From the NCBI GenBank assembly GCA_945900945.1, contig CAMDKL010000036.1:1-42313 (forward strand): 42,313 nt of DNA. Reading direction: 5' to 3'. This document shows positions 1 to 8,630 of this stretch, piece after piece. This DNA comes from Pirellula staleyi DSM 6068 (GTDB lineage: Bacteria; Planctomycetota; Planctomycetia; Pirellulales; Pirellulaceae). The notes under the pieces were generated by a model. That model was not told the DNA's origin. It did not search any database and saw only the letters and a program-made list of their open reading frames with translations. The position numbers and the translations under genes are program-made. Each line of letters begins with the position of its first letter. Within the stretch, counting starts at the first letter, position 1.

Positions 1-375
1 AAAACATCGCGTTCCATGTTGGGTCTGGTTAGTCGCTTTTGTCCAACGGTTCTGCTTTTGTCTGTAGAATCCTGGTCGCCGCCGATTTTCAATTCCGGTT
101 TGTCCTGCCCGTATGAATGCTGGGGAAGATCCTGTGCCAATAAAAAGACAAAGAAAACCAATTGGGATAGGGACTTAATTATGGCTCTCAACCAGTTCCA
201 GGTGAATAGACGAGTGCAATCTGTTTTTTCACGCGGAGGCGCGGAGACGCGGAGAGGATGGCTTGAACTAGCAACTGGAAACATAGTGGCCCGCCGTGGG
301 GAATTGGTTCTCGTCAGCGGACGGAACCGCTGCATGCATTTTGCATCGTGACATAATGTTATATCTTGTTTCAAG
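1..375. other. Window edge, no supported gene
   Basis: I see no convincing gene here. A plus-strand frame is open across most of it, but its predicted protein is low in complexity, resembles nothing I know and runs through the short GC-rich repeat at 231-254. The stretch is probably intergenic or the decayed upstream part of the DUF533 remnant that follows. Confidence 0.5.
231..254. repeat. Three tandem 8-bp GC-rich units
   Basis: Three units in a row: ACGCGGAG, GCGCGGAG, ACGCGGAG. The surrounding DNA is AT-richer. From memory, this type of CGCGGAG-rich track recurs in intergenic DNA of several bacterial phyla, often near GxxExxY genes; that is recollection, not a search. A GxxExxY remnant does occur elsewhere in this window (19391-19531). 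Confidence 0.6.
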
Positions 376-561
376 GTGATTTGTTGTAAATTCGATTGTT
401 TGGAGATCATAGCGTACGCCATTTCGCTGATGGCCATTAAGCTAGATACCAAAGAAGAAGCTGAACACCTTCGCCAATTGGCTCGTGCGCTTCGCATTCC
501 TCCGGACTTGTGCAATCAAATACATCAACCACAAAATGCGCCACTGATGTATCAAGCTTAG
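376..561 (+). pseudogene. DUF533 C-terminal remnant
   Basis: Only about the last 50 residues of a DUF533 (YebE/TerB-like inner-membrane) protein are recognisable. The readable part runs from EIIAYAISLMAIKLDTKEEA to the stop and matches in style the family's closing helices (EIYxASxLAI-D-TxxExxYLxxLAxxLxLPPxLxxxIH). The usual glycine-rich membrane segment and most of the TerB-like helical domain, some 150-200 residues, are missing. The only upstream start is a GTG at 376 without a good ribosome binding site; an internal ATG lies at 430. I read it as a 3' fragment left by a deletion. A small stand-alone helical protein is less likely. Confidence 0.6.
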
Positions 562-602
562 TCGTCGAGTTTCGACCCATTCGACAGACGCTTGGCCCCT
601 TT

Positions 603-2123
603 CTAGTATTGATTAGGTCGGGTCTGAGGGTAGATCAGCCCTTTACGCGCTCGTCCTTGGGTCCACAGGATGAGACCGGCGAGCCGTTGTTTTCCCCGAA
701 AAAAGTAGTCTTCGCCAAGCTTTTTAAGTCGCTCGCGATAAACAACCGCCCGATGGCTCGGCCAGTCCTTATCTAACGGCTGGACCCATTTCTTTTGAAT
801 CAAAAGCTCGGCGAGATGCTCGCCCAGCATTTGATGCCCTTCTATTCGTGGATGGACATGATCGATTAGCCATTGGTTACCGACCAACTTATCCGCTGAA
901 ACCGTCTGAAACATCGCGTCGACATCGAAGCACCAAACTTGTTCCTCGTTGGCTAGTTCGCGTATCGTTTGTTGCATTGAACTGACTGCCCTCAACGGAC
1001 AAACATCTGCGTCTCGTGCATCAATCAGATGTTGACGAGCTCGCTCGATTTGCCCTCGGCCAAGTTCGAATTGGCCAAGCCAGTATAAAGCGGCTGCATG
1101 CTCAGCATCGAGAGCCAGGATACTTTCCAAATCATGGACTGCATTACTTTCGCTGGAATCGGTGCCACCGTCTAAATTTTCGACTTGCTCCTTTTGGGCA
1201 TTCGTGGCGTGAGACCAAACCCATTCAATTTGCTCCTTCGATGCGGCATCCATGCGTTGGCTAAGTTCAACTTTGAAGGGAGGGCAATCGCGGATATTCG
1301 ATGTCGGAACCAGGAGAACCAGAGGCACGCTCGCAGTTTTACAGTTCTCAATCATTGCAGCCATATTCCACCGCATCGATTTTACGACCGATTGGACATC
1401 GAGCTCGTCTCGCTTATATTTTTCGAGCCCCCCTTGATCGTCGAGCAACGCATCGACTTCTTGCTCCAGTTGAGTCGCAGTGGCAGCAACCGTTTTCGCC
1501 GGGAAAAGATCCGCGACACATTGGGATGCGAACTGGACAAGTCGAGAGGAACGAGCGATTCGAATCACGCCTTTTTTAATATTGGATGCCTGTTTCCAGC
1601 CAGAAAGTTCACGGTCTTCGAGAAACTCGTTGTGGCCGCACTCGATAATTACTAGATCGGGTTCATATTGCAGTATCTCGATTAGCATTGGCAGCAATCG
1701 ATAGCTCGCATACGACAGTCCGCCGCAATTGACGATTTCGAATCGCTGAGTCGGTTCAATGAGTTGGAGATTTACCTGCAGCCATGCTGGAAAAGCAGTC
1801 GGATGCTTGTAGGGTTCGCCTTGAGTCGTTGACCCGCCCAAGCAAAAAATCCGTTTCGTGTCGCTTCCCTTTTTTGATTGAAATTGAGTTGATTCAAAGA
1901 GCTTCAATCGATCCGCGGAAGTACGGTAGATATCACCATGCAATTCAAACAGAGGAGAGAGTTGACTGCAATCCAAGAATGGATCAGAAATGTGAGCGGG
2001 TTGGTGCGTCCAAGCAACACGGAGACCTAGCTCCATCGCCGCGAAAGGAAGAAATCCAAACAACGCGAGCGCAATTCGCCCCGGCCAAAACCTAGCTCTG
2101 GATGTCATCATTCGCTTGGCCAA
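603..2123 (-). CDS. SGNH/GDSL-family hydrolase-like exported protein
   Basis: A 506-residue protein with one N-terminal membrane segment (about residues 15-36), so probably anchored and facing outward. The SGNH blocks are readable: block I CLGGSTTQGEP with nucleophile Ser98, block II NCGG near 132-135, block III GHNEF (163-167), and block V DHVHP with Asp421 and His424. A helical insert near 330-375 resembles a single tetratricopeptide-like pair (YWLGQFELGRGQIERARQHL). The family includes esterases and O-acetyl transfer or removal enzymes acting on polysaccharides; the substrate cannot be told here. It stands alone on the minus strand. The start follows a short AT-rich leader, downstream of the terminator at 2244-2292. 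Confidence 0.8.
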   Translation of the reverse strand: MAKRMMTSRARFWPGRIALALFGFLPFAAMELGLRVAWTHQPAHISDPFLDCSQLSPLFELHGDIYRTSADRLKLFESTQFQSKKGSDTKRIFCLGGSTTQGEPYKHPTAFPAWLQVNLQLIEPTQRFEIVNCGGLSYASYRLLPMLIEILQYEPDLVIIECGHNEFLEDRELSGWKQASNIKKGVIRIARSSRLVQFASQCVADLFPAKTVAATATQLEQEVDALLDDQGGLEKYKRDELDVQSVVKSMRWNMAAMIENCKTASVPLVLLVPTSNIRDCPPFKVELSQRMDAASKEQIEWVWSHATNAQKEQVENLDGGTDSSESNAVHDLESILALDAEHAAALYWLGQFELGRGQIERARQHLIDARDADVCPLRAVSSMQQTIRELANEEQVWCFDVDAMFQTVSADKLVGNQWLIDHVHPRIEGHQMLGEHLAELLIQKKWVQPLDKDWPSHRAVVYRERLKKLGEDYFFRGKQRLAGLILWTQGRARKGLIYPQTRPNQY

Positions 2124-2243
2124 AGCAAATCCTTCAATCGAACGATAGGGTACGGACTCTCAACCGTTCATTTGGTACCATAGTCTACTCCCTTCCTGCC
2201 TTGAACGCAAAAACCATACCACGGCATTGGAAGCAAATGCGCG

Positions 2244-2292
2244 AAAAAAAAGAGCCCGCTTTCGATTCCAGTTTTTGGGAGCGAAAGCGGGC
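2244..2292 (-). terminator. Strong intrinsic terminator (minus strand)
   Basis: An 11-bp perfect stem (GCCCGCTTTCG at 2254-2264 pairs with CGAAAGCGGGC at 2282-2292) is followed on the minus strand by eight T residues (A8 at 2244-2251 on the plus strand). On the plus side only four T follow the stem, so it may work weakly in both directions. It closes the short transcription unit that starts near 2487. Confidence 0.85.
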
Positions 2293-2487
2293 CCTTTTGA
2301 CCGTGAAAGATGGGCGAAACCTAGTGCGAATAGGTCTGTCGGTTTTCGTCCGAGAGGTCTCGGTCATTCGACGCCACTAAGATCACGGTACCTCCTTGTT
2401 AAGGGAGCGCCGGTGCTGAACATACTCCGTCAGCACTGCATTAACCGCAGTTCCACCGCGGTTATCGAGTTGATCGTCTCTCGATAC
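2254..2487 (-). ncRNA. Candidate structured RNA with tiny ORF
   Basis: Reading the minus strand from a predicted start at about 2487, there are successive perfect hairpins: TATCGAG/CTCGATA (2480-2486 with 2463-2469), a 7-bp TAACCGC/GCGGTTA stem (2458-2464 with 2442-2448, touching the first), and GTGCTGA/TCAGCAC (2430-2436 with 2413-2419). Then come a strong AAGGAGG at 2391-2397 and a 21-codon ORF. That ORF contains CCGAG/CTCGG (2350-2363) and overlaps ACCTA/TAGGT (2319-2335), and the terminator follows. About 234 nt contain five hairpins plus a terminator, far denser than neighbouring DNA. I recognise no known RNA class: the sequence does not look like tmRNA, SRP RNA, RNase P or 6S. It may be an sRNA, a dual-function RNA or the leader of a small protein. 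Confidence 0.5.
2321..2386 (-). CDS. Tiny 21-residue ORF, function unknown
   Basis: GTG start at 2386, stop TAG at 2321-2323, 21 residues beginning MILVASNDRDLSDEN. It is polar and charged, with no membrane segment or cysteine. Its support is positional: a perfect AAGGAGG lies 4 nt upstream of the GTG. It also sits inside a short unit with its own promoter-like element and terminator. A longer overlapping ATG frame at 2367 would run through the terminator and is unlikely. I do not recognise the peptide. It may be a real small protein, or a translated element inside a regulatory RNA. Confidence 0.4.
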   Translation of the reverse strand: MILVASNDRDLSDENRQTYSH

Positions 2488-2497
2488 AACATTGAAA

Positions 2498-2514
2498 AGC
2501 ACATGCCGTGCCAA
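2498..2514 (-). promoter_or_regulatory. Sigma-54-type promoter candidate
   Basis: On the minus strand TTGGCACGGCATGTGCT matches the sigma-54 pattern TGGCACG-N4-TTGC. The invariant GG (2512-2511) and GC (2500-2499) are exactly 12 apart. Only the T before TGC deviates. Counting 12 nt on puts transcription start at about 2487 (a G), directly before the first hairpin of the structured RNA. No enhancer-binding protein gene is adjacent. Confidence 0.55.
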
Positions 2515-2684
2515 AATGCATTCTGTTTCTAAAATCCTCTGTTAAATCAACGATGCCCAAGCATTTGAAAGACCAACGGGTAGAAATAGAAAGGAAATGG
2601 AAGTCGTTTTGTAATATTTTCAAAATGCAAGCAAACGATTTTACAATTTCACCCTAAGCGTATTAAAATTGTTCGTTATTCCCT

Positions 2685-3227
2685 TCATGGAAGCAAAGAT
2701 CGCTTCAATGCCGCGTCACTAAGCTCTTTTCCAGTCGGAATCGATGGCATGGAAGGTTTGGTCTCCAAGATAGGCTCGGGAGCTTTGGTCTCCTGGCGCG
2801 GTTCGGACGGTTCGAGCACTTGAGGCTTGACCGCGGATTTTACGGTCGCGAAAAGTGAAGCGGTATCGTCGGCTGTTGCAACTTTGAAAAATCCCTCTTC
2901 TGCAATGCCGTGCTGAATGCGTTCCATTATTTTGCGGCAGGCCGCTACTCTCAATGCAAAATGCAAGACAACAAATCGATCAGGTAAATATCTAGCAACA
3001 AGTGAATCGCCAGATAAAGACACGGCCAGGTGCGACGCAAAGCGTTTTATCGCTTGCTCAGTGACCATCGCACCGTGAGTACTGACCATGTCAGCGCACT
3101 TACACAACGTTATCATCGACAAGCAGGAATCGCCTCGATGCATTATCGCAATGGACAGCCACTCACTGAGAACAGACTCGAGGCCGTGACGATTGAGTAA
3201 TTGAGTGAGTCGGTCTTGCCATGGCAA
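2685..3227 (-). CDS. Degenerate GGDEF-like domain protein
   Basis: The first 110 residues follow the GGDEF fold: DRLTQLLNRHGLE corresponds to the usual DxLTGLxNRRxxE opening, a central strand-helix region follows, and RYLPDRFVVL sits where R(Y/F)GGDEFxVL should be. The GGDEF signature is thus LPDRF, so diguanylate cyclase activity is not expected. The C-terminal 60 residues are a Pro/Glu/Lys-rich, probably unfolded tail. The start used is a TTG at 3227 with a weak ribosome binding site. The frame continues upstream through a TAG (3240-3242) into a membrane-helix ORF, and the residues between, VNIPLPWQDRLTQ, read like a normal lead-in to the domain. The pair may therefore be one gene broken by a stop codon. 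Confidence 0.55.
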   Translation of the reverse strand: MPWQDRLTQLLNRHGLESVLSEWLSIAIMHRGDSCLSMITLCKCADMVSTHGAMVTEQAIKRFASHLAVSLSGDSLVARYLPDRFVVLHFALRVAACRKIMERIQHGIAEEGFFKVATADDTASLFATVKSAVKPQVLEPSEPRQETKAPEPILETKPSMPSIPTGKELSDAALKRSLLP

Positions 3228-3239
3228 CGGAATGTTGAC

Positions 3240-3467
3240 CTAAGGCGTTGAGTTGCAAATTTGCTTTTCTTGCCAGTGTTGTAGATACAAGCCGCGGTGG
3301 ACGCAGGATTGCAAATAATAGAATTTGACTGGATCCCAACTCACCGCTTCTCCGCCAATTGCATCTCCCGTTGGCTCGATTTTTTTTTGCCAGGCGAGCG
3401 CCAACAACAGCAAGGCAACTGTCGCTTCAGCAGCAAGGCTTAGGTTTTCTATCGAGAGCAGTTGCAT
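3240..3467 (-). CDS. Small membrane protein, 5' half of a split gene?
   Basis: From the ATG at 3467 this encodes about 75 residues: MQLLSIENLSLAAEATVALLLLALAWQ forms one membrane helix, followed by a soluble stretch with two cysteines. It ends at TAG (3240-3242), only 15 bp upstream of and in the same reading frame as the GGDEF-like ORF. A membrane helix followed by a GGDEF-type domain is a common arrangement, so I infer these are two halves of one original protein. No strong ribosome binding site is visible at this ATG; the frame is open further up to 3527. Whether both halves are still translated cannot be told. Confidence 0.4.
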   Translation of the reverse strand: MQLLSIENLSLAAEATVALLLLALAWQKKIEPTGDAIGGEAVSWDPVKFYYLQSCVHRGLYLQHWQEKQICNSTP

Positions 3468-3527
3468 GGAGGAACCAAAGGTAGTTCTTCGACAATTCAT
3501 GAACACATGATGAAATCCAAACCACAC

Positions 3528-3864
3528 GGGAAAGGGACCTTCCGTCCCTTGCCATGCGTCGTGCCGAGACCTGCCATGCTTTAATTATTGCTAGCTAACG
3601 CCTAGCTTTGCCGGTTGTATAGATTATTGGGAATTGCGTTGGTAGGGGTACTTGACAGTCTACCCAGCACGATCATAAGTTAATCATTCGAGTAGTCTGC
3701 TGATCTGGATTTCCACCTTGAGCACAACGCAAAAGTACAGCAGGATGGCACATGGCGGTTTGAAAAACCGAAATTTTTTTGAGCACAAGTATTCACCAGT
3801 TACTCCTCAAATCTAGGAGAAAACTGGTCGCTGTGAACGAAAGACTAGAAAAAGGAGTGGATCA
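3528..3864. other. Divergent intergenic region with two hairpins
   Basis: No gene seen. The stretch separates a minus-strand gene from the plus-strand BON gene, so both promoters should lie here. A perfect 7-bp hairpin AAGGGAC/GTCCCTT occurs at 3532-3550, close to the minus-strand gene, and a longer two-part hairpin occurs at 3795-3828, close to the BON gene. Confidence 0.6.
3795..3828 (+). promoter_or_regulatory. Two-segment hairpin in BON leader
   Basis: ACCAGTT (3795-3801) pairs with AACTGGT (3822-3828), and inside it CTCCT (3803-3807) pairs with AGGAG (3815-3819), with one unpaired base on one side and two on the other. It ends 36 bp before the ATG at 3865. The internal AGGAG is buried in the stem; the working ribosome binding site lies further downstream. 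It may stabilise or regulate the transcript. Confidence 0.4.
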
Positions 3865-4098
3865 ATGATTGATTCAGGGTTTCAGGATGTTTTGGGACAA
3901 GCGAAAAAGATGCTTACGGAGAGCCCATTCCACGCTCTGAGGATGCTGCAAGTCGAGCAACTCGGGGATCAAGTGCTGCTCAAGGGCCATGTGGAAAGTT
4001 TCTTCTTAAAGCAACTCGCTCAAGAAACGGTTCGATCCGCGACACGAGGCATCGAGATGGTTAATAGCGTCGCGGTTGGTCCGAACGCCTCCGTCTAA
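3865..4098 (+). CDS. BON domain protein
   Basis: A 77-residue protein that is essentially a single BON domain (alpha-beta-beta-alpha-beta): LQVEQLGDQVLLKGHVESFFLKQLAQETVRSATRGIEMVNSVAV shows the typical G-x-V central turn and the closing strand V(N/D)-(S/N)-V-x-V. BON domains are thought to bind phospholipid surfaces or help assemble envelope complexes. There is no signal peptide or membrane helix, so this short form may be cytoplasmic. An AAAAAGGAG ribosome binding site lies just upstream of the ATG. Its stop sits 1 bp from the stop of the convergent folA gene. Confidence 0.8.
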   Translation: MIDSGFQDVLGQAKKMLTESPFHALRMLQVEQLGDQVLLKGHVESFFLKQLAQETVRSATRGIEMVNSVAVGPNASV

Positions 4099-4099
4099 A

Positions 4100-4612
4100 T
4101 TAATTTCCTTTTCGAACGAAATGCTGGAATTCAGAAGGCCACTCGTTAAATGCATCCGAGGGGATAAGCGTACGTTCCATGCAGTCGAATTCCGACTCAT
4201 CCCAATCGACAAAGATTGCATCTCCGACAATATCCGCCAAGATGCGCGTCAAATATAGATTCGTAACTAGCGGCATTGCAACTCGATAGATTTCGGCTCC
4301 ACCGACAATAAAAGCGATCGAATCGTTCGGCACGAATGCTATTGCTTCGTCAAGCGAAGTAGCAATCTGAACGCCATCAAAAATTTTATCTTTCTGCCGA
4401 GTTAAAACAATGGTTTGACGGCCTGGCAGCGGTCTTCCTATCGACTCATATGTTTTCCGCCCCATGACGAGCGTATGCCCCATTGTGAGTCGTTTGAATC
4501 GTTGCAAATCGCTCTGTAGCTTCCAGGGCAAAGTGTTGCCGCGTCCAATCGTGCCATTTCGGGCGACGGCTACGACGGCGCTAAGTTGACGTGTATTCAT
4601 ATTTTTATTCAT
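4100..4612 (-). CDS. folA: Dihydrofolate reductase
   Basis: Reduces dihydrofolate to tetrahydrofolate with NADPH, in the cytoplasm. At 170 residues it has normal family length. The motifs are complete: SAVVAVARNGTIGRGNTLPWKL (N-terminal strand and Met20-type loop), the catalytic acid Asp35 in SDLQRFK, the NADPH-binding MGRKTYESIGRPLPGR and TIVLTR, and the late VGGAEIY turn. Two in-frame ATG codons (4612 and 4600) are possible starts; neither has a good ribosome binding site. It is divergent from the PstS-like gene and convergent with the BON gene. No thymidylate synthase gene is adjacent. Confidence 0.93.
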   Translation of the reverse strand: MNKNMNTRQLSAVVAVARNGTIGRGNTLPWKLQSDLQRFKRLTMGHTLVMGRKTYESIGRPLPGRQTIVLTRQKDKIFDGVQIATSLDEAIAFVPNDSIAFIVGGAEIYRVAMPLVTNLYLTRILADIVGDAIFVDWDESEFDCMERTLIPSDAFNEWPSEFQHFVRKGN

Positions 4613-4749
4613 ATTTTGAGACTATAGGTTTTGTGGCTGATTTGCCAACAGGGCCCGCTCCCATTCAACACGATTTTGGATACATTGTAAAAAAGTGGCC
4701 GGCGGTTGGTCGGCCAAGAGTCTTTAAAATGCCCCAGGAGGTGGAGTCT

Positions 4750-5850
4750 ATGTCAATAAGTTACTGTCGGTTCCGTTCATCCATTGTCGGTGTCATGCTG
4801 CTAGCCATCGCGCCGGCGTCCTGCCTATGGTCGCAAACGCCCGCGACCCCCGCAAGCAATTCTAAACCTAACCCTAGTACCATCCCTAATGCGTCCCAGC
4901 TGGGTCAAGGTACACTCACACAAAACGATCTCCAACATGCTGCCTTGTTGCAATTAATCGATTCGATTGAACCGTATCATATAGAGAAAGAGCTCAAAGG
5001 AACGGCCACTTTGTCAGGTTCGACAACGATGTTGGCGATTGGGAAGTCATGGTCGGAACGTTTCAGAAATTTCCATTCCAACGTTGTATTTAATCGAGGA
5101 GCGGATGGAACCGACGTCGGAATTAAATCTTTAGCCGAAGACCCCACGGTCATTGCGGGTTCAAGCCGTCCGCTAACGGATGCGGATTTGGCATTCTTGA
5201 AAAAAGGAAAATGCAAGGAGCCACTTAGTATCATCGTAGCGCTCGATCCGCTCGCCCTTTATGTTCACAAGGATAATCCTGTCGCAGGCGTCACGCCGGA
5301 ACAATTGGAATCCATTTTTCGTGCAGCGGGCGGCGAGGGAAAACATGCAGCCACCTGGGGCGATCTAGGTGTGACGGGAGAGATGGCTACGAAACCGATT
5401 CGAATCCATTCTCGAAGCGAAGTGAGCGGAACAACTACTTTCATCAAGCAACTCGTTCTTCGCGGCGGTGAGATGGCTAAAGAATCGCAATCGCATCGGA
5501 GTAGCGAAGAAATATGTTCTGCAATCGGCGGAGATTTGGCCGGGGTGGGAATTTGCGGATTCGGCGAAGCGACCGCACAGGTTCGACCGGTCTCTTTGAT
5601 TCTCAATGGTGCACGCGTACCAGCCACTGAACAGAGCTTCCTCTCCGGACAGTATCCGTTTGTGCGGCCATTGTTACTGGTTATAGACAAGTCTCAAATG
5701 GCAACTGACGGAGGACTGAGAGAGGCAATGCTTCGCTACGTATTAAGTCGCGATGGGCAACTTGAGGCCGTTCGAGCTGGTTTTTTTCCTGTCGATCCAG
5801 CATTTATTCGCAAGCAACTCGACATCATTCGTGGCCCTCAGATGCGATAG
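4750..5850 (+). CDS. PstS-like phosphate-type substrate-binding protein
   Basis: An exported solute-binding protein of the PstS/PBP-like-2 type, 366 residues from the ATG at 4750. This start is favoured by AGGAGG about 9 nt upstream and gives a clean signal peptide (SSIVGVMLLAIAPASCLWSQ). Family landmarks are GTATLSGSTTM near the start of the mature fold, DGTDVGIKSL, AGSSRPLTDAD, the hinge region ALDPLALYVHKDNPV, and SRSEVSGTTTFIKQ. No pst permease or ATPase genes follow, so it probably works as an orphan binding protein or sensor. A 6-bp hairpin (TGGCCG/CGGCCA, 4696-4716) lies in the leader. The PDZ protein gene follows after 30 bp and may be co-transcribed. Confidence 0.85.
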   Translation: MSISYCRFRSSIVGVMLLAIAPASCLWSQTPATPASNSKPNPSTIPNASQLGQGTLTQNDLQHAALLQLIDSIEPYHIEKELKGTATLSGSTTMLAIGKSWSERFRNFHSNVVFNRGADGTDVGIKSLAEDPTVIAGSSRPLTDADLAFLKKGKCKEPLSIIVALDPLALYVHKDNPVAGVTPEQLESIFRAAGGEGKHAATWGDLGVTGEMATKPIRIHSRSEVSGTTTFIKQLVLRGGEMAKESQSHRSSEEICSAIGGDLAGVGICGFGEATAQVRPVSLILNGARVPATEQSFLSGQYPFVRPLLLVIDKSQMATDGGLREAMLRYVLSRDGQLEAVRAGFFPVDPAFIRKQLDIIRGPQMR

Positions 5851-5880
5851 AACCCGTCGCTTCCGAAACCCATCTTCTTC

Positions 5881-7152
5881 ATGAAACAAAAAAACACAAA
5901 CATGAAACATCTCAAAATATTCCTTTTTTCGCTCGCAACCTGCTCGCTTTCCTTGCCATGTTTTGGGCAATCCAGTTGGCTTGATTTTTCAAGTGCTATT
6001 CCGAAGGTCTCGGTGCCGGGGGGATCTCCCAATTACAATCCATCCACGCAAGGCTTCCCTTCGAATACAGGGTTTCCATCCACTCCTGGCGGCGTCAATG
6101 CTGGTGGATATGGTGGATCAGGCGGGTATGGGGTCGGTCCGATGATTGCTCCCGCGCTCAAGGACTGGAAACTAGGGGTCTATGTGCAGAATACGGACGC
6201 CGGAGCTATCATCACACAAGTCGCCCAAGGCAGCGCTGGCCAACAGGCTGGTCTACAACCGAATGACATTATCGTTGCGGTTGGTGGATCACGAATTGGC
6301 AGTTTTGATAATCGGATCATTGAGTTGGCCGATGAAATTCGTAAAAACACGGATGCCACGGGACGCGTTTCTCTGCTTGTGTTCAATGCTCGCCAACGAT
6401 CCATCGCTTCGTTAACGGTTTCTATGAATTCGACTTCGAGTACCTTGACTGGGGCAATAGCCATTCGAGATCGATCGCAGTTGCCGTACGGTTCTACGCT
6501 CACGGTTCTACTTCAAAACGTCTCAAAACCATACTATGAAATCGCCGGGGGAAAGTCGGTCACGCGAGCAGACGGTATCGGGCCCTATGGATTCGAAATA
6601 CATTTCGATCCGCGGTATGTAGATCCGAGAGATCAATACCGGTTGTCAGCATCGATCTCTCTTGGAAATCAACTAACGTATGGTCTTCCTCAGCCAATCC
6701 CCGTCGATATTAACCAACTAGGGCAATCGCTGAACCTAACGTTGGAGCAGGCTCTGGGGGGGCAATCCTTTGGCAATCCGAGTCAACCAGGCGCTCCAAC
6801 AGCTGGACAAGGTAATGTAGTCAACGTTGGCTACCCGGGTACCCTTGCTCCCAATGCTTTGAACGATTTGTTTTTTCAGTTGCTTGGCAGAGCCCCCAGT
6901 ACTAGTGAAGTCGTTGCATGGCAGGCTTATTTGCAACAGGGCAACTCGATCAATGATATGAAGGTAAAATTGATGTCGAACTACCAGTTCCGAGCGAGAT
7001 TCCCAAACGACGCCGCTTACGTCCAACAGCTGGTTACCTCTTTGACGAATCGAGCGCCTAGTCAACAAGAGCTGACTTATTGGATGACACGCTTGCAAGC
7101 TACGGGGGCACCCGAAACGGTTATCAATGAGATCCTTGCGAAGAATCGATAG
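5881..7152 (+). CDS. Secreted PDZ, YbaY-like and DUF4214-like protein
   Basis: A signal peptide is clear (KHLKIFLFSLATCSLSLPCFGQ). A Gly/Pro/Ser-rich linker follows (about 40-80), then a PDZ domain (about 95-180, LGVYVQNTDAGAIITQVAQG, AGLQPNDIIVAVGG). Next is a YbaY/YscW-like beta domain (about 185-285, LTGAIAIRDRSQLPYGSTLTV). The C-terminal 100 residues have two DUF4214-like helical repeats (LFFQLLGRAPSTSEVVAWQ and TSLTNRAPSQQELTYWMTR). There is no protease domain, so the PDZ probably binds protein tails in the periplasm. Starts at 5881 and 5902 are both possible; neither has a good ribosome binding site. It lies 30 bp after the PstS-like gene. Confidence 0.75.
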   Translation: MKQKNTNMKHLKIFLFSLATCSLSLPCFGQSSWLDFSSAIPKVSVPGGSPNYNPSTQGFPSNTGFPSTPGGVNAGGYGGSGGYGVGPMIAPALKDWKLGVYVQNTDAGAIITQVAQGSAGQQAGLQPNDIIVAVGGSRIGSFDNRIIELADEIRKNTDATGRVSLLVFNARQRSIASLTVSMNSTSSTLTGAIAIRDRSQLPYGSTLTVLLQNVSKPYYEIAGGKSVTRADGIGPYGFEIHFDPRYVDPRDQYRLSASISLGNQLTYGLPQPIPVDINQLGQSLNLTLEQALGGQSFGNPSQPGAPTAGQGNVVNVGYPGTLAPNALNDLFFQLLGRAPSTSEVVAWQAYLQQGNSINDMKVKLMSNYQFRARFPNDAAYVQQLVTSLTNRAPSQQELTYWMTRLQATGAPETVINEILAKNR

Positions 7153-7218
7153 AGTCCCCACGATCGAAATAATGCATGCGGAATGGGCAATCGGTAGCGA
7201 CTAAGAAGCTATTTCGTA

Positions 7219-7294
7219 TTGCGTTGAATTGTCTGCTAATGATTTGCGCTATCGAATTCGATAACTCCTATATCATTGGTCGAACTCAACGCAA
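7219..7294 (+). promoter_or_regulatory. Nested dyads before tiny ORF
   Basis: A 9-bp inverted repeat (TTGCGTTGA at 7219-7227, TCAACGCAA at 7286-7294) encloses a perfect 14-bp palindrome TATCGAATTCGATA (7250-7263). The right arm ends a few bases before the ribosome binding site of the 26-residue ORF. This could be a structured leader or a pair of operator sites. Confidence 0.4.
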
Positions 7295-7306
7295 CACAAG
7301 GAATTG

Positions 7307-7387
7307 ATGCGTCGGGTTTCGGCACCCCCACCTTTCCAAAATACTTCCAAACAGTTGTTTGGTTTGCCGATGGCCACGGAAGGCTGA
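7307..7387 (+). CDS. Tiny 26-residue ORF, function unknown
   Basis: ATG at 7307, stop TGA at 7385-7387. The peptide begins MRRVSAPPPFQNTSKQLFG and ends in a short neutral tail: basic and proline-rich at the start, without a membrane helix. AAGGA lies about 4 nt upstream of the ATG. The stop codon overlaps the first bases of an intrinsic terminator stem, so a compact small gene or a leader peptide with attenuator is plausible. I do not recognise it. It precedes an exported protein gene at 7458 by 70 bp, and the terminator lies between them. Confidence 0.4.
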   Translation: MRRVSAPPPFQNTSKQLFGLPMATEG

Positions 7388-7417
7388 TTCAGCCACGGCG
7401 CTGAGTCAGTCTTTTTT
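7384..7417 (+). terminator. Intrinsic terminator after tiny ORF
   Basis: CTGATTCAGC (7384-7393) pairs with GCTGAGTCAG (7400-7409), one G-T wobble in ten pairs, with a 6-nt loop, followed by C and six T (7412-7417). It begins at the stop codon of the 26-residue ORF and could act as terminator or as attenuator for the gene starting at 7458. Confidence 0.75.
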
Positions 7418-7457
7418 GCATTGGCGACCGACCGACGAAAACATAAGGTTTCTCTCG

Positions 7458-8630
7458 ATGCGATGCCAAATAATACGTTCCGTTCTTCGCGCCTCCTTTG
7501 TGGCCGGACTTATTGCTTCATGTCAAAATGCAGTGCTTTCCGCTTCTTGGAAAGATTGTCTGCAACCTTTTGCCGGCACTTGCTTTATTCACGATCTTCA
7601 ATGGGAGCAATTCAATTCCAAATCCATACGGAAGTTCGATTCTGAGATAATTCAAACCTCCGATAAAGAAACAGACCTATGTGTCGCCGCCGCCGAACAG
7701 TTTGAGTTTAATTCAAAAGTGGATGCAGCCTTCGACGCCTTGCGTTCGAAATCCAGCCAGTTTTTTCAATCGGGAGCCATGCTGTTTCAGAGTTACTCTC
7801 GATCGCGAAGGATCGTTATTTCTTCCATCGATAGTCTGAGTCTTAGGCTCGTCGACTGGATCAAAGTCGCGAATGCGTTCCCGCCTATGGCTGGCGAAAC
7901 GCAGGGCAATCAGGACTTTGAATGTGGTTGGGATAGCGAAGAATGGAACCGCGTTATCCCTCATTCGGTTTCGCGTATTTCGGCGTACCGAGGCTGTGCT
8001 AACGTTTTTGTTTATTCGCTAGATGCTTCGGAAAACGTTCCCACGGATTCCAATTTCGATCCATCGGTCTTGGATACCGATCATGCTTCGCTGGTCGGCG
8101 TTGAGCTAGCTTGTCCGGAAGATCAATTGATCGATCACGGTTGGAACGGCAGTTTGGTACAGCCCTCGATTTGCTGTCCTCAAGAAGCGGATCCTGAAGC
8201 TATCTGTAGGGAGCACTACACTGTGCAATCGGCGATCTTAGTTCGTCCGCCAACTTTGGAAGCGGAATACGAAGCCCAGGCAGCAGACACTTCATTCGAG
8301 TTTGCCGAACTTATCGCAATCGAAAATATAAATTTAGACATCGTTTCTGAGCCAAACGGAATCCCCTTTTCGTCAAAGGATTTCTTGACAACGCTTCATG
8401 CCTCAACCTATGGTCCCATCATCCAGCCGGCTTCGAATTCGCATCGCTTGGCCGTGGATTACGCTATGAAAGTGATTTCGCAGCCGTCGACTGAGGCTAG
8501 AAGCCAAATGTCGATGCGGGTCGCGGGCCAAATCCGAACGGTAGGGCAGTTCCTAGTCGATTTTGCAAACCAGATTGACAATCGAATCGAACAATTGGAA
8601 ATCGCTCGACGGGATAATGTTCAACGGTAA
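7458..8630 (+). CDS. Exported protein of unknown function
   Basis: 390 residues from the ATG at 7458. This start gives a plausible signal peptide (RSVLRASFVAGLIASCQNAVLSA) and has AAGG about 8 nt upstream; the frame is open to a GTG at 7359, which would run through the terminator and is less likely. The mature part is acidic, with scattered cysteines (for example WKDCLQPFAGTCF, SICCPQEADPEAICREHY) and no domain I recognise. The C-terminal 60 residues look helical (VAGQIRTVGQFLVDFANQIDNRIEQLEIARR). It is likely periplasmic or surface exposed. It is followed by a palindromic repeat and a long gene-poor stretch. Confidence 0.6.
   Translation: MRCQIIRSVLRASFVAGLIASCQNAVLSASWKDCLQPFAGTCFIHDLQWEQFNSKSIRKFDSEIIQTSDKETDLCVAAAEQFEFNSKVDAAFDALRSKSSQFFQSGAMLFQSYSRSRRIVISSIDSLSLRLVDWIKVANAFPPMAGETQGNQDFECGWDSEEWNRVIPHSVSRISAYRGCANVFVYSLDASENVPTDSNFDPSVLDTDHASLVGVELACPEDQLIDHGWNGSLVQPSICCPQEADPEAICREHYTVQSAILVRPPTLEAEYEAQAADTSFEFAELIAIENINLDIVSEPNGIPFSSKDFLTTLHASTYGPIIQPASNSHRLAVDYAMKVISQPSTEARSQMSMRVAGQIRTVGQFLVDFANQIDNRIEQLEIARRDNVQR

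Follow-up and report, generated by a model that had tools for sequence, protein, structure and literature searches.

A conserved, structured RNA with a sigma-54-type promoter and an upstream inverted repeat in the order Pirellulales

What does a compact, strongly folded stretch of about 240 nucleotides, placed between a sigma-54-type promoter and a terminator, encode in a planctomycete genome: a small protein, the leader of a neighbouring gene, or an RNA that acts on its own? The question is raised by the minus strand of a 42,313-nucleotide contig of Pirellula staleyi DSM 6068 (the window, by which we mean the whole stretch of DNA analysed), where one unit combines an inverted repeat at 2646-2609 with a promoter of the -24/-12 type at 2513-2499, the stretch of a structured RNA at about 2487-2244, and its intrinsic terminator. 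The observation of this minus-strand unit is confirmed, and it is probably the gene for a small folded RNA and not for a protein. More precisely, we consider it likely that the locus is a free-standing, trans-acting non-coding RNA gene whose expression depends on sigma-54. An earlier examination of the DNA letters (the sequence-only reading) had proposed that a sigma-54-type promoter, a structured RNA and a terminator form one unit, and had offered a small-protein or dual-function gene as an option. The structured unit is indeed conserved, with compensatory changes; the inverted repeat is a feature absent from that reading.

The individual parts then proposed are all found in the DNA. The promoter, TGGCACGGCATGTGC, lies at 2513-2499 on the minus strand with the GG-to-GC spacing claimed for it, and sets the transcription start near 2487 (a reading of the sequence, with coordinates assigned by script). 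The three hairpins that had been described follow at 2485-2464, 2461-2445 and 2436-2413, then come AAGGAGG (2397-2391) and a 21-codon open reading frame beginning with GTG (2386-2321, stop included), and the unit closes with the terminator (2298-2244), a hairpin followed by eight T (2251-2244). With the start deduced from the spacing to the -12 element and the end from the terminator, the predicted transcript covers 2487-2244; it forms one discrete unit, as had been suggested, of a length nearer to 240 than to the 234 nucleotides first given. This stretch folds at -95.9 kcal/mol against -71.6 +/- 5.1 kcal/mol for 200 shuffled versions, none of which reaches so low a value (z = -4.8).

The existence of an RNA family is supported by searches at increasing phylogenetic distance. 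With 2230-2560 as the query, blastn matched 23 of 60 genomes, the window's own being counted: 23 of the 27 in its genus and none of the 33 outside it. A covariance model built from the 23 genus copies (R1) matched 34 of 241 genomes of the family, 11 of them outside the genus, and a second model (R2) matched 16 of 396 genomes of the order and added one. A third model (R3), made from ten non-genus copies, matched 48 of the 241 genomes of the family, spread over 12 of its 68 genera, and 37 of the 396 order genomes, 14 of these in eight other families; such a patchy detected presence reflects either frequent loss or limited sensitivity. One genome (G011) was missed by R3 alone and matched by R1. 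Every row listed by the covariance models held one match per genome, stricter search filters were applied above 40 genomes, and a mirrored self-match (L002) was excluded. A DNA pattern run over 397 genomes of the class gave 22 places: three already known, 11 that were kept, all in the order, and eight that were dropped by eye as chance, the reversed pattern giving eight as well. Checked afterwards, the dropped places (seven genomes, three outside the order) carry a sigma-54 site in one case of eight and the repeat in none. In a sample of 212 genomes of the phylum, which includes few members of the order, the window's own genome was the sole match. The total kept is 74 loci from 13 families of one order, the Pirellulales. 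The model alignment takes in 68 of them, L163, L164, L168, L177, L178 and L179 having missed the threshold of E 0.05, and L165, L167, L169 and L171 match the model only at E 0.001 to 0.05; because these loci score weakly, the families f2, f7, f10 and f19 are represented by weak model scores together with the promoter and the pattern.

The best conserved part of the RNA, 2399-2301, is the very part that had been taken for a Shine-Dalgarno sequence plus a reading frame. It consists of a Shine-Dalgarno-like element containing CANGGA, ACAAGGAGG (2399-2391), and of a core of about 88 nucleotides (2388-2301), for which the alignment, the consensus fold and the pair counts give a three-way junction made of the helices P1 (2388-2383 with 2306-2301), P2 (2375-2373 with 2315-2313), P3 (2372-2369 with 2341-2338) and P4 (2336-2333 with 2321-2318). 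Computation supports this structure. In the 68 aligned copies, 97.1% of the pairs of P1, P2 and the first arm are standard, and changes on both sides occur at 14 of 16 pairs, in 52 such cells against 7.2 +/- 2.2 after shuffling (0 of 500 shuffles as high), the alignment having been fitted to the covariance model and so being biased towards the model's structure. When the pair partners are slid, pairing falls to 30-47%. The pairing is borne out when 11 non-genus copies are aligned with MAFFT, which gives both-side changes at eight pairs (0 of 500 shuffles); the structure scored on this alignment had been written down from those same copies. Compensatory changes in relatives, which had been put forward as the check on the fold, are found over the wider set and hardly at all within the genus, where 1 of 18 pairs is changed on both sides; the wider set was needed because the core is nearly invariant in the genus. 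The bases of the core internal loop are close to invariant, a constancy that points to recognition by a partner.

Downstream of the core, TTTT occurs within 25-80 nucleotides at 53 of the 74 loci, and none is found in that range at the other 21. Two further candidates were discarded: CCC in the terminator loops as a universal seed, seen at only 31 of the 74 loci, and a pairing of AAGGAGGU..GUGAUC with the tail of 16S rRNA, considered by eye, which relatives lose.

Could the same segment nevertheless encode a peptide? AAGGAGG and the GTG frame stand at a plausible spacing in the window, and many genus members share the same first residues, a consequence of the conserved DNA. The homologous GTG is present at 48 of the 49 loci of the family. 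The frame that starts there has 21 codons in nine genus members, only two codons in three species (L019, L020 and L021) and from 10 to over 90 in the others, in other frames, while the pairing is kept and its pairs covary. The absence of a conserved frame is supported by these computations; the 21-codon frame was judged not to be a gene, the small-protein option was rejected on the variation of frame and length, and a small-protein or dual-function gene is highly improbable here. On the opposite strand, a 101-codon open frame runs antisense to the RNA (2227-2532, plus strand); it matches the RNA loci of relatives and could be taken for a gene by annotation.

The promoter is a constant companion of the core. 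Within the 420 nucleotides upstream of it, 74 of 74 loci have a match to a loose sigma-54 pattern, against 8 of 74 in an antisense control and 11 of 74 in a downstream control. This pattern was broadened after the first loci had been inspected, and for that reason we also report the strict pattern TGGCA(C/T)N6(T/G)GC, which occurs at 60 of 74 loci and at 0 (antisense) and 3 (downstream) in the controls. In all 23 genus members the -24/-12 site lies 40 to 153 nucleotides before the core. The blastn matches reach the promoter only at L001, L003 and L004, the other loci having been picked up by their core or their 5' arm, and loci recovered through the core still carry the promoter at the frequencies just given. 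Sigma-54-dependent small RNAs are recognized by a -24/-12 promoter conserved in front of an RNA that codes for no protein. Such a promoter is found here, and the predicted control of the RNA by sigma-54 is well supported at the level of sequence, the nitrogen- or stress-type control offered by the sequence-only reading being one candidate form of it.

Such RNAs are recognized, in addition, by an upstream activator site. The inverted repeat of the window, TTGTAA-N26-TTACAA (2646-2609, minus strand), is a putative site for an enhancer-binding protein. The pattern TTG(T/C)A(A/G)..0-30..(C/T)TACAA occurs in the 320 bp that precede the promoter at 57 of 74 loci, 17 being missed, against 0 of 74 in a downstream control of which three stretches were shorter than 320 bp. 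In the window's own genome, TTGTAA-N0-26-TTACAA-N70-100-TGGCAC occurs at one place only, which is the RNA. The promoter and the repeat in the searched spacing gave matches in 7 of 26 genomes, six at the RNA and the seventh (G006) inside a 350-codon open frame, with two control hits. The half-sites are mostly further apart within the genus; outside it, the usual repeat is a 15-bp palindrome, TTG(T/C)AANNNTTACAA, placed some 100 to 240 bp upstream of the -24 element. This palindrome followed by GGCAC was found in 13 of 22 chosen genomes. In all 13 it stands at the RNA; a single additional place was seen, in G283, and the controls gave no hit. The genomes were chosen mostly for a canonical repeat, and the informative result is the near lack of other places, presence being given by construction. 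The repeat is what the site of a dedicated enhancer-binding protein would look like. At L019, L020, L022 and L023 it takes the form of a long, near-perfect palindrome with the inner sequences TTGCAATG..CATTGCAA.

A folded junction followed by a terminator is also what a cis-acting leader, a riboswitch or the processed end of a neighbour's transcript would offer, and the gene of an uncharacterised, conserved protein of about 140 residues does lie upstream on the same strand at 17 of the 74 loci. This gene adjoins the RNA at 22 of the 74 loci in all (L120, L123-L130, L133, L147, L149, L150, L155-L158, L163-L166 and L179) and at none in the window's genus; at the five loci where it is not upstream it is downstream and convergent, and it is never downstream on the same strand. 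Across 37 representatives the downstream genes vary in kind and strand, and a promoter-like site stands directly 5' of the RNA. A leader or riboswitch was rejected, as no same-strand gene was found to be conserved downstream, and we regard a cis-acting element or a processed end as very unlikely. Because the RNA has this gene beside it at 22 of 74 loci, it is not independent of its neighbours in those lineages, and the protein, for which no Pfam match above threshold was found in three members (best PsbP_2, E 0.16) and no NCBIfam match in two, may share a function with it. Among the neighbouring frames of the window (flanks of about 1.5 kb), 4100-4612 alone is seen again, next to L005 and L006 and no other locus; as these neighbours are not kept, the RNA looks free-standing and trans-acting.

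If the RNA acts in trans, what would it act upon? Its 5' arm changes fast. The first hairpin is given by the fold, in an alignment with seven near relatives whose sequences differ there; the second carries GGUGGAACY over a covarying stem and is present in 16 of 23 genus members, with several types of stem pairs; the third is given by the fold and the alignment. The small RNAs CsrB and RsmY bind CsrA-type dimers at GGA sites and thereby free mRNAs, and the RNA studied here might be such a decoy under the control of sigma-54. Six csrA homologues in the window's genome, the GGA hairpin with its covarying stem and the CANGGA that precedes P1 at 44 of the 49 loci of the family speak for this reading, as does the motif A-N-GGA-(T/G), counted 33 times in the 5' parts of 34 loci against 11 +/- 3 in shuffles; here and in the other GGA counts, the shuffles ignore the kinship among loci. 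Each RNA, however, has only one to two clear sites. In the same 34 loci, total GGA amounts to 115 against 100 +/- 7 in the 5' parts and to 165 against 184 +/- 10, below the shuffles, in whole RNAs, and a CsrA sponge with many sites was discarded on these totals. In hairpin loops, GGA is counted 15 times in the genus against 6.5 +/- 2.3 in shuffled loops, whereas the remaining family loci, with 12 against 9.2, and the loci outside the family, with 3 against 4.6, show no enrichment. Furthermore, CANGGA is present in 22 of 23 genus members and 22 of 26 other family loci and in only 2 of 25 loci of other families; because 23 of these 25 lack it, the function shared by all these RNAs cannot be to bind CsrA. 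A CsrA decoy appears to us rather unlikely.

Of the six CsrA homologues (L025-L030), one lies inside a 315-codon open frame. In the part of the study consulted, CsrA is named among the genes with predicted sigma-54 promoters in Planctomycetia (PMC12316311). No sigma-54 site was found in the 420 nucleotides upstream of five of the window genome's own csrA genes (L028 not among them), and sigma-54 control of these genes was rejected for the five examined.

In other families, the loops suggest an antisense RNA, whose C-rich UUCCCGC loops would form base pairs with G-rich stretches of mRNA close to the start codon. Loops of the UUCCCGC type recur in two different hairpins in other families, and in the 40 loci outside the two best-sampled genera CCCG occurs in at least one hairpin loop at 23, against a mean of 6.6 and a maximum of 14 in 1000 shuffles, six of the 40 having it in two or more loops. 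No such loop is found, however, in the 23 loci of the window's genus (g1) or in the 11 of g38, and the division into g1, g38 and the rest was made after the loops had been inspected. Antisense pairing is a possibility towards which we incline little. Among the other 5' features, an element GACCC(A/G), often UUCGACCCAG, lies within 45 nucleotides of the inferred start at 26 of the 74 loci (L123, L127, L128, L131, L132, L147-L160, L163-L166, L169, L177 and L178); in most of these a hairpin comes next, and its loop is often UUCCCGC. By eye, ten g38 loci (L063-L067, L069-L071, L121 and L122) share, a short way past the start site, a conserved 5' module, GUGGC..ACCGAGGCCCRNNGCGGAGCUAGGU..GCCAC; by pattern this is seen at the RNA only, in four of five g38 genomes. 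The g38 element ACCGAGGCCCGNNGCGGAGCTAGGT was rejected as a separate repeat: it occurs once each, at the RNA only, in four of five g38 genomes and in none of two g1 genomes.

The model we propose, in which the RNA depends on sigma-54 and acts in trans, combines a constant part and an exchangeable one. An enhancer-binding protein bound to the TTGTAA...TTACAA repeat would switch on transcription from the -24/-12 promoter by the sigma-54 form of RNA polymerase; the RNA would then be made only while the activator is on. The RNA would end at its own terminator and work in trans. The conserved core, with P1, the AUCUUAG internal loop and the three-way junction, would be an unchanging platform to which a protein probably binds, and the fast-changing 5' arm and loops would carry exchangeable recognition motifs. 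In the window's genus, the GGA sites (the GGA hairpin and CAAGGA before P1) may titrate a CsrA-type protein, and the UUCCCGC loops of other families would base-pair with G-rich stretches of mRNA; this last step, with CsrA or mRNA as the partner, we hold to be somewhat less likely than not. The repeat, the promoter, the RNA and, in most loci, the terminator are kept together. One could imagine from this a private circuit across the order, in which one dedicated sigma-54 activator would have the RNA gene as its only or almost only promoter, the RNA would form a new class of structured RNA with a junction that docks a protein or a small molecule, and lineage-specific arms would re-target the RNA. 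We hold this extension to be unlikely; if it were true, an enhancer-gated RNA would tune a whole bacterial order.

Where does this RNA stand among known ones? The sequence-only reading had matched it to no RNA class familiar to it, and the searches agree with it at relaxed thresholds: no match of Rfam release 15 (4227 models) overlaps the RNA in window positions 1-8000 at E up to 5, or in nine relatives at E up to 2. Rfam matches away from the RNA, including one in a low-complexity stretch of L024 (E down to 1.6e-4), were judged to be chance. To our knowledge, planctomycete small RNAs have been little studied, and sigma-54 control of trans-acting RNAs is known mainly from proteobacteria. No described sigma-54-dependent small RNA of a planctomycete was found among the literature matches listed. 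The planctomycete terms looked for are absent from the main text of two reports of new bacterial RNA motifs (PMC11109978, PMC8632094). A candidate structured RNA, the Rhodopirellula-1 motif, is listed for Planctomycetes (PMC2864571, in the part consulted); it is described there as probably cis-regulatory and as also present in Proteobacteria, and the window RNA is set apart from it by that description only.

In conclusion, we file the RNA as a new family within the functional kind of sigma-54-dependent small RNAs. With its covariation-supported structure, its promoter, its upstream repeat and its distribution over 13 families, its activator, its partner and its targets are now directly searchable, and if it is a sigma-54-dependent, trans-acting RNA it would be a case in a phylum distant from the proteobacteria. 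CrcZ is a sigma-54-dependent small RNA with a -24/-12 promoter and upstream activator sites. The window RNA, as read here, resembles it, GlmY/GlmZ and Qrr in being a free-standing small RNA gene with such a promoter and a putative activator site upstream. It differs from GlmY/GlmZ, Qrr and CrcZ in having no Rfam match, in belonging to another phylum, in its different upstream repeat and in its conserved three-way-junction core. With CsrB and RsmY it shares, in the window's family, GGA in a hairpin loop, CANGGA and the presence of csrA homologues in the genome; it is distinguished from them by its few sites, by its sigma-54-type promoter and by the absence of the motif from most loci of other families.
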